A stretch of DNA of 34,765 nt, from contig CAMWXG010000011.1 of assembly GCA_947178155.1 (NCBI GenBank), positions 1-34,765 on the forward strand, given 5' to 3'. A program made the translations under genes and the position numbers. Below are positions 6,895 to 21,519 of this stretch, piece by piece; positions within the stretch are counted from its first letter, which is position 1; every line of letters starts with the position of its first letter. The notes beneath the pieces were generated by a model. The model was not told where the DNA came from and ran no database searches. It worked only from the letters and a program-made list of their open reading frames with translations. The DNA comes from an uncultured Lachnoclostridium sp. GTDB lineage: Bacteria; Bacillota; Clostridia; Lachnospirales; Lachnospiraceae.

Positions 6895-7194
6895 TGCTGT
6901 GACATTGATAGCTGTGAAGCATGAGGTTGCTGTTGTATATATAACAGGTTTTCTGTGGAGCGAATGTCAAGTTAGGAAAACTGGCGACAAGTCACTGTAC
7001 AATAATTAGAGAAATTCGTAAAGTTATTACGAAATTTTATAGGGTATTTTTGTGCTTGATTAATGTATTTTGATTAGAACAAGACACACCCGGATAAGTG
7101 TACAGTCACCGCTTGTTGTGCTGAAATTAACAGACAAGGATATTTCTATCTAAATAAATGTCTGTAAAAGTGCGAAAAGGAGGCGGCTTTTTTT
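6895..7194 (+). promoter_or_regulatory. Structured 5' leader of the S10 operon
   Basis: About 300 nt of untranslated leader with several exact complementary segments: TGACATT (6900-6906) with AATGTCA (6963-6969), enclosing a CTGTT/AACAG hairpin; ACTGTACA (6994-7001) with TGTACAGT (7099-7106), enclosing the hairpin TTCGTAA/TTACGAA (7015-7033). This is the layout of an autoregulatory ribosomal-protein leader (in E. coli, L4 controls the S10 leader), but I cannot assign a ligand. The leader ends with AAAAGGAGGCGG before rpsJ. Confidence 0.6.
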
Positions 7195-20428: not shown

Positions 20429-20488
20429 GCAACAGGAATTTTAGTTACAATTCATCTGTGCAAGCAAGCTTGAAATATTGGGAATTGA

Positions 20489-20515
20489 GTTACTGTTCAT
20501 ATTGTTACCGGTAAC
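20489..20515. repeat. Short repeat fragment resembling the MITE-like left end
   Basis: This 27-bp segment starts GTTACTGTTCA and ends GTTACCGGTAAC, matching the left-end hairpin of the element at 19161 at most positions. A second, wider pairing ATTGTTAC/GTAACAAT overlaps it. It lies in the infA-rpmJ gap and may fold in the mRNA. Confidence 0.55.
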
Positions 20516-20551
20516 GTGTAACAATATTTATTAAATATTGGAAAAAAGTGC

Positions 20552-20580
20552 TTGCATCATTTTTAATATTGTGATAAACT
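20552..20580 (+). promoter_or_regulatory. Candidate promoter before rpmJ
   Basis: TTGCAT and TAAACT are spaced by 17 nt, with a TGA extended -10 immediately before the -10. The -10 itself is weak. It is 33 nt before the rpmJ start. Confidence 0.4.
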
Positions 20581-20613
20581 ATCAAATGGACTTTATGAAA
20601 GGAGGTTATTGCT

Positions 20614-20727: not shown

Positions 20728-20737
20728 TTAGAAACGG

Positions 20738-20764
20738 AAGCCAAAGCGAATAACTTTGGTTTTT
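20738..20764 (+). terminator. Terminator after rpmJ
   Basis: CCAAAG and CTTTGG enclose a 7-nt loop, flanked by AAG and a TTTTT run. It marks a break between the infA-rpmJ part and the alpha operon (rpsM onward). Confidence 0.65.
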
Positions 20765-21150
20765 CTGTTATTATAATAAATCTTGCTTTCTGTGCGTTAT
20801 GATGCATAACTGCGTCATGATATTGTAGATGGAGTGATTAACCATTTCAGCGGCAGATGTGTCTTTTCATCTAAAGCTGGTCCTATCAACGGCAGATTGA
20901 TGACTGCGGCGTAGTACCGACTGTCATTTCGCAGACAGTCTCTCTTTATGCACATGCCAATCCAGAGGAATATACTACTAAAGTGACATATTGGCGGCGT
21001 GTGAGTAGTGGAAAAATGTTCACCTACTCGATTAATTAGAACAAAGTCTATGCAGTAGGATTACAATTTAAAGCGGCTGGCAGTGATCTGTTTCACTGTA
21101 ATCAATTATTAACTATTAAAAAAGAAGATTAATGGAGGTGTAAAGTACAC
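20765..21150 (+). promoter_or_regulatory. Long structured region before rpsM (candidate leader RNA)
   Basis: About 385 nt without a plausible ORF but dense in exact stems: GTTATG/CATAAC (20796-20810), CAGC..AGATG/CATCT..GCTG (20848-20879), ATCAA/TTGAT (20885-20901), GACTGTC/GACAGTC (20919-20940), GAGTAG/CTACTC (21003-21029), and GATTACA/TGTAATC (21059-21103) enclosing CAGTGA/TCACTG. It follows a terminator and precedes rpsM, where the alpha operon of E. coli is regulated by S4. A promoter was not clear; TATAAT at 20772-20777 lacks a good -35. It could equally be a separate non-coding RNA. Confidence 0.55.
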
Positions 21151-21519
21151 ATGGCACGTATTAGTGGTGTAGATTTACCAAGAGAGAAACGTGTTGAGAT
21201 AGGTCTTACCTATATATATGGAATAGGAAGGGCAAGCTCAAACCGTATTTTAGCAGAAGCTAAAGTCAATCCTGACACACGTGTAAAAGACCTTACGGAT
21301 GATGAGGTTTCCCGTATTCGTGATGTTATTGATGCTTCACAGACAGTAGAAGGTGATTTACGCAGGGAGATTGCGTTAAATATTAAGAGACTTCAGGAAA
21401 TAGGCTGTTATAGAGGTATACGTCATAGGAAAGGGCTTCCGGTAAGAGGTCAGAAGACTAAGACAAATGCAAGAACCCGTAAAGGGCCAAAGCGTACTGT
21501 CGCAAATAAGAAGAAATAA
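21151..21519 (+). CDS. rpsM: 30S ribosomal protein S13
   Basis: 122 residues. [26 protein letters not shown] and the basic tail [16 protein letters not shown] are typical. S13 bridges 30S head and 50S and contacts P-site tRNA. First gene of the alpha operon, with TGGAGGTG 14 nt upstream. Confidence 0.98.

Follow-up and report, generated by a model that had tools for sequence, protein, structure and literature searches.

The gap of 423 nt that separates rpmJ from rpsM in a contig of an uncultured Lachnoclostridium sp. (GenBank CAMWXG010000011.1, positions 1 to 34,765, called the window below) raises the question of what this spacer contributes to the alpha operon that follows it. The genes run ...map-infA-rpmJ, then rpsM, rpsK, rpsD, rpoA, rplQ, and the sole Rfam ribosomal leader found in the window is the S10-Clostridia leader at 6906-6990. 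An earlier note, made from the letters alone, had described an infA-rpmJ segment closed by a terminator-like hairpin and followed by about 385 nt of structured RNA. The hairpin is present as described (Table 1), and a CCAAAG/CUUUGG hairpin followed by a U-run can be read at the corresponding position of about nine species within the genus, as well as in certain other genera. Its action as a transcription terminator we regard as plausible only, because in the full fold its U-run falls within a stem and because many relatives possess an unrelated hairpin at this position. Inverted repeats, e.g. ATATTGTTAC/GTAACAATAT, also occur in the preceding infA-rpmJ gap (about 185 nt, window 20429-20613).

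On comparative grounds, window 20781-21104 is one conserved RNA of predicted structure with about 210 core positions. Folding of the 433-nt stretch that comprises the gap with its edges is more stable than 99 of 100 shuffled sequences (z = -3.45), and the comparative evidence for structure is much stronger than this single-sequence folding energy. A nucleotide search matched 24 of 61 genomes, every match falling within the genus of the window, and a covariance model recovered the leader in 24 of the 28 genomes of that genus; rpsM was not detectable in the four that it missed, and therefore the leader is present wherever it could be observed (24 of 24 genus genomes with rpsM). The earlier note was prepared to give up its reading if relatives lacked conserved sequence or structure; both were found, in these genomes and in other Lachnospiraceae genera. 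Segment-by-segment alignment of the relatives resolved the RNA into a fixed core and variable inserts. The major insert, between P9 and the 3' strand of P8, is unusually long in the window, which is why the region resembled 385 nt of structure, and folding of this insert with its edges shows no excess stability over shuffles (z = -0.82). Thus, the structured region proposed before rpsM is conserved and covarying, but not over the whole 385 nt.

Table 1. Features of the rpmJ-rpsM gap and the start of rpsM (window coordinates)
Feature	Positions	Strand	Basis
Terminator-like hairpin 3' of rpmJ	20733..20769	+	z = -3.67; CCAAAG/CUUUGG likeness in relatives
Conserved leader RNA, full extent (insert + 210 positions of the model)	20781..21104	+	covariance model R1, 169.2 bits
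P1 5' strand UUGCUUU, partner 21070-21076 (AAAGCGG)	20783..20789	+	alignment; also kept in other genera
P2 hairpin	20799..20818	+	6/7 pairs changed on both sides
P3 5' strand AUUGUA, partner 21062-21067 (UACAAU)	20822..20827	+	alignment; U-A to C-G in two genus members
P4 hairpin, loop UGAUU(A); UGAUU 20835-20839 pairs with 21100-21104 (pseudoknot)	20829..20845	+	alignment, complementarity tests
P5 hairpin, loop UGUCUUU (also given as UGUCAUUU; UGUCAUU in most relatives)	20849..20878	+	7/8 pairs changed on both sides
P6 5' strand GUCUUAU, partner 21055-21061 (AUAAGAU)	20880..20886	+	4/7 pairs changed on both sides
P7 hairpin GCAG/CUGC, loop AUUGAUGA, near-invariant sequence	20892..20907	+	alignment
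P8 5' strand GCGUAG, partner 21048-21053 (CUAUGC)	20909..20914	+	alignment
P9 hairpin, loop AUUUCGCA	20919..20940	+	alignment
Species-variable insert between P9 and P8 3' strand	20941..21045	+	105 nt; 9-109 nt in relatives; no excess stability
3' strands of P8, P6, P3, P1, nearly continuous	21048..21076	+	alignment
GCGGCUG, then last hairpin (GCAGUG/CACUGU); module common to most Lachnospiraceae rpsM leaders	21073..21099	+	alignment, leader comparison
AAUCA tail, pseudoknot 3' half	21100..21104	+	complementarity tests
rpsM Shine-Dalgarno GGAGG	21134..21138	+	read from sequence
rpsM (S13), first alpha-operon gene (rpsM-rpsK-rpsD-rpoA-rplQ)	21151..21519	+	ORF + protein matches

According to the comparative model, the RNA consists of ten helices and one pseudoknot: a domain closed by P1 contains P2 as well as a long-range arm of stacked helices (P3-P6-P8) with the side hairpins P4, P5, P7 and P9. 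P1 is immediately followed by GCGGCUG and the last hairpin. Several unpaired stretches are near-invariant (UCUGUUCGUU, UGAUGA and AUUUCGCA). Neither a conserved anti-Shine-Dalgarno strand nor a conserved intrinsic terminator was seen within the leader. P9 was considered as an attenuator terminator and rejected, as its U-tail is not conserved in relatives; likewise, a short frame that could encode a leader peptide (AUGAUAUUGUAG) loses its start or stop in relatives upon inspection. A leader without P6-P9 was encountered in Lachnoclostridium sp. UBA3320 (L005/L195, 523-664), in which P1-P5 are retained, as are the last hairpin and the tail that forms the pseudoknot; it is possibly a natural minimal version or else an assembly fault, a scaffold join being nearby. 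An apparent second leader copy before rpmJ in the same sequence was discarded because a scaffold join with a run of N lies in between.

In the manner of the check proposed in the earlier note, alignment of the rpmJ-rpsM gap followed by R-scape, the aligned leaders were examined for covariation with a tree-based permutation test modelled on R-scape rather than R-scape itself. Among 21,115 column pairs only two were significant, both of them within the proposed structure; when the test was restricted to the 67 pairs of the structure, five were significant. In alignment A1 (20 sequences, with variable inserts removed and the loop of the last hairpin cut to about four bases), standard pairs fill 99.0% of the cells of these 67 pairs as compared to 29-59% when the structure is slid along the alignment, a lenient control since the structure was derived from the same sequences. 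Changes on both sides were observed in 24 pairs and 77 cells (11.0 and 22.5 after shuffling). P1, P3 and P7 are nearly unvarying within the genus. P7 has no covariation support because its pairs never vary, while P3 gains support from the variants AUCGUA/UACGGU in two members of the genus and AUUGUG/CACAAU or ACUGUG/CAUGGU in other genera.

The pseudoknot joins the AAUCA tail, directly 3' of the last hairpin, to the complementary UGAUU loop of P4, and the 3' end is thereby folded back on the P1-closed domain. Loops of the UGAUU type and tails of the AAUCA type co-occur (Fisher p = 1.3e-5) across 65 leaders labelled as lying outside the genus, a set that includes a few genus members. Runs of complementarity that span 6 nt or more are present in 12 leaders, whereas 1000 permutations gave 2.9 such leaders on average and never more than 9. 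Variants that preserve the pairing were identified as well: UGAUGA/UCAUCA (L208, L254), UUGAUG/CAUCAA (L235) and UUGAUUCG/CGAAUCAA (L039), with a partial case in L021.

Beyond the genus, model R1 identified the leader, at E values no higher than 0.12, in 18 of the leaders fetched from other genera of the Lachnospiraceae, and in a strict scan of the family it was found in 15 of 334 genera, the genus of the window included. Carriers include Anaerocolumna, Herbinix, Mobilitalea, Mobilisporobacter and Acetivibrio ethanolgignens. Across 299 other genomes of the phylum R1 gave no credible match; one short, weak hit (L307) was taken as spurious, as no leader features could be read in it. A pattern scan of genome contigs returned 102 stretches, of which 64 were model-positive, and all 64 are flanked by rpmJ and/or rpsM; none of the 35 pattern matches located away from these genes has a supported model match, and neither does any of four found in viral contigs. 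The leader is therefore tied to one genomic slot, and it is restricted to part of the Lachnospiraceae.

The earlier note could not match the region to a known leader class, and our searches agree: no family of Rfam 15 matches the leader region or its relatives, even at a lax threshold. We found no description of the leader in the mainly open-access articles searched for rpsM leaders. The same slot, before rpsM-rpsK-rpsD-rpoA-rplQ, is occupied in sister genera of the family by the S4-Clostridia leader (RF03140), which was described by Eckert and Weinberg 2020 (PMC7247131). RF03140 comprises 55 positions and its helices are unlike those of the new leader; searches up to E 10 do not detect it in the window region or in 16 relatives, and no genome of the genus scores above its cut-off. 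Among 107 other genera, by raw genus counts that ignore phylogeny and with the RF03140-like class assigned by regular expression, the new leader occurs in 19, an RF03140-like leader in about 30, and both in none. The Alpha_RBS element (RF00140), the pseudoknotted leader of the E. coli alpha operon with S4 as its known ligand, went undetected in the window region even with the threshold at E 10. Both Alpha_RBS and the new leader precede the alpha operon and contain a pseudoknot; however, that of Alpha_RBS overlaps the start site, whereas that of the new leader ends about 30 nt before the GGAGG and does not include the ribosome binding site. The Bacillus-type S4 leader, with a sequence and structure motif that includes GUAA, acts at rpsD and not before rpsM, and shares with the new leader the proposed ligand, S4. 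Clostridia are said to lack it (PMC7247131). With respect to what is general for ribosomal-protein leaders, the new RNA has a conserved, covarying structure that is consistently located upstream of ribosomal-protein genes.

Comparison of the rpsM leaders revealed further elements. The GCGGCUG-plus-hairpin module (window 21073-21099) occurs in the rpsM leaders of 79 of the 107 other genera, of which it is the most widespread part, and has no Rfam match. It usually adjoins both the new and the RF03140-type leaders, at the 3' end of the former and the 5' end of the latter; its loop often contains CACCAGG...GUUGU, and its arms vary almost everywhere yet stay complementary. Between this module and rpsM, 33 of the 107 genera (L040, L049, L061, L069, L092 and others) have a hairpin ACAUUUCAGRC...GRGCUG or GCAUUUCACC. 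Eight Lachnospiraceae genomes (L101, L102, L105, L114, L142, L148, L149, L151) carry the element GAAUC...AUGUUUUAAARACAGGAA...GAUUC before rpsK; none of the remaining fetched loci showed it, and no relevant Rfam match was obtained. In these genomes the rpmJ-rpsM gap measures 17-119 nt and the new leader is absent. The pre-rpsK element may be a regulator that substitutes for the leader but does not cover rpsM; if so, it would make S13 a less likely candidate for the controlled protein. The region around the rpsM start, GGAGGUGUAA...CACAUGG (window 21134-21153), is conserved family-wide in most rpsM genes, even those without the leader, and has the potential to fold into a small hairpin next to the Shine-Dalgarno sequence.

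What does the RNA do? The earlier note left open whether it is an alpha-operon autoregulatory element or an independent structured RNA; as every relative found sits in the rpmJ-rpsM slot, a cis-acting leader is favoured. Its location, its mutual exclusivity with the presumed S4 leader and the content of the operon make feedback by a ribosomal protein the most likely function, and S4 is the most likely ligand, given that alpha-operon leaders elsewhere respond to it. Eckert and Weinberg consider an operon gene whose product is a leader ligand elsewhere to be the best guess for the ligand (PMC7247131). We infer that window 20781-21104 is probably the 5' leader of the alpha-operon mRNA and represents a new structural class of ribosomal-protein leaders. 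The encoded protein, most likely S4, would bind the folded domain once it exceeds the free rRNA sites and would stabilize the pseudoknotted fold. The 3' tail would then be drawn to the domain, some 30 nt upstream of the GGAGG, and this arrangement could obstruct the ribosome or trap it. Such a fold would lower translation from rpsM and, via coupling, of the whole operon, and the upstream hairpin would partly separate the leader transcript from the preceding operon. Resemblance to the S4 site of 16S rRNA is a helpful but dispensable feature of such leaders; at the level of primary sequence, mimicry of 16S rRNA was not detected in sense or antisense orientation, the alignment being no better than with shuffles (p = 0.90). 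GUAAAG near the Shine-Dalgarno sequence was rejected as a mimic of the S4 site, as genomes that have no leader also contain a similar GGAGGUGUA...CACA. The rpsD region (matches indicate DNA homology only) remains part of the operon whether or not the leader is present, and gene content is therefore uninformative on the ligand.

It is unlikely, although worth considering, that this pseudoknotted class of ~200 positions responds to a signal other than one ribosomal protein (e.g. a small molecule or an intermediate of assembly) in its control of the alpha operon, and that whole regulatory modules are exchanged in the fixed rpmJ-rpsM slot as the family evolves. Slightly less probable is a cis-regulatory, riboswitch-like aptamer for a signal that is not a ribosomal protein (a small molecule, the translation state or ribosome assembly): the large size of the RNA, exceeding the 55-position leader that it replaces, its near-invariant unpaired stretches and its pseudoknot would suit such a sensor, but riboswitches usually also precede metabolic genes, whereas this RNA is found before one ribosomal-protein operon only, and sister genera have the presumed S4 leader in its place.

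A two-state switch, in which GATTACA would alternate between P3/P6 and the downstream TGTAATC as its pairing partner, is improbable. This stem formed the outer part of the nested GATTACA/TGTAATC-CAGTGA/TCACTG structure proposed near the ribosome binding site, of which the CAGTGA/TCACTG part is a conserved hairpin. The two outer strands are complementary (at least 6 of 7 pairs) in 19 of 23 members of the genus, and the stem is predicted in the fold of the isolated 3' end; however, four species of the genus lose it while retaining the AAUCA tail, and other genera with the pseudoknot have CACAAU or CAUGGU as the corresponding strand and cannot form it, so that GATTACA/TGTAATC is not the conserved pairing. 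In the window, GATTACAAT serves to complete two long helices and the AATCA tail has its partner in the distant UGAUU loop, and the complementarity can be understood as incidental to P3 and the pseudoknot. We consider equally doubtful an independent small RNA with its own promoter, for which rpsM merely happens to lie downstream: the upstream hairpin and a TATAAT at 20772-20777 would be compatible with it, but no convincing -35 element accompanies the latter and no promoter was called there, the RNA has no 3' terminator and only a short spacer to the rpsM Shine-Dalgarno sequence, and it was never found outside the rpmJ-rpsM slot. Chance structure in an AU-rich spacer, in line with the only moderately unusual single-sequence folding, is refuted by conservation and covariation and can be practically dismissed.

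The RNA in front of rpsM, probably a ribosomal-protein feedback leader, thus represents a large class absent from Rfam and from the papers searched, in an abundant gut family for which an alpha-operon leader had previously been described in some members only. In this family unrelated RNA structures replace one another in one operon slot. Such swapping makes it testable how several RNA folds perform one regulatory job and which protein is the ligand, and the defined pseudoknot offers precise mutations with which to do so.
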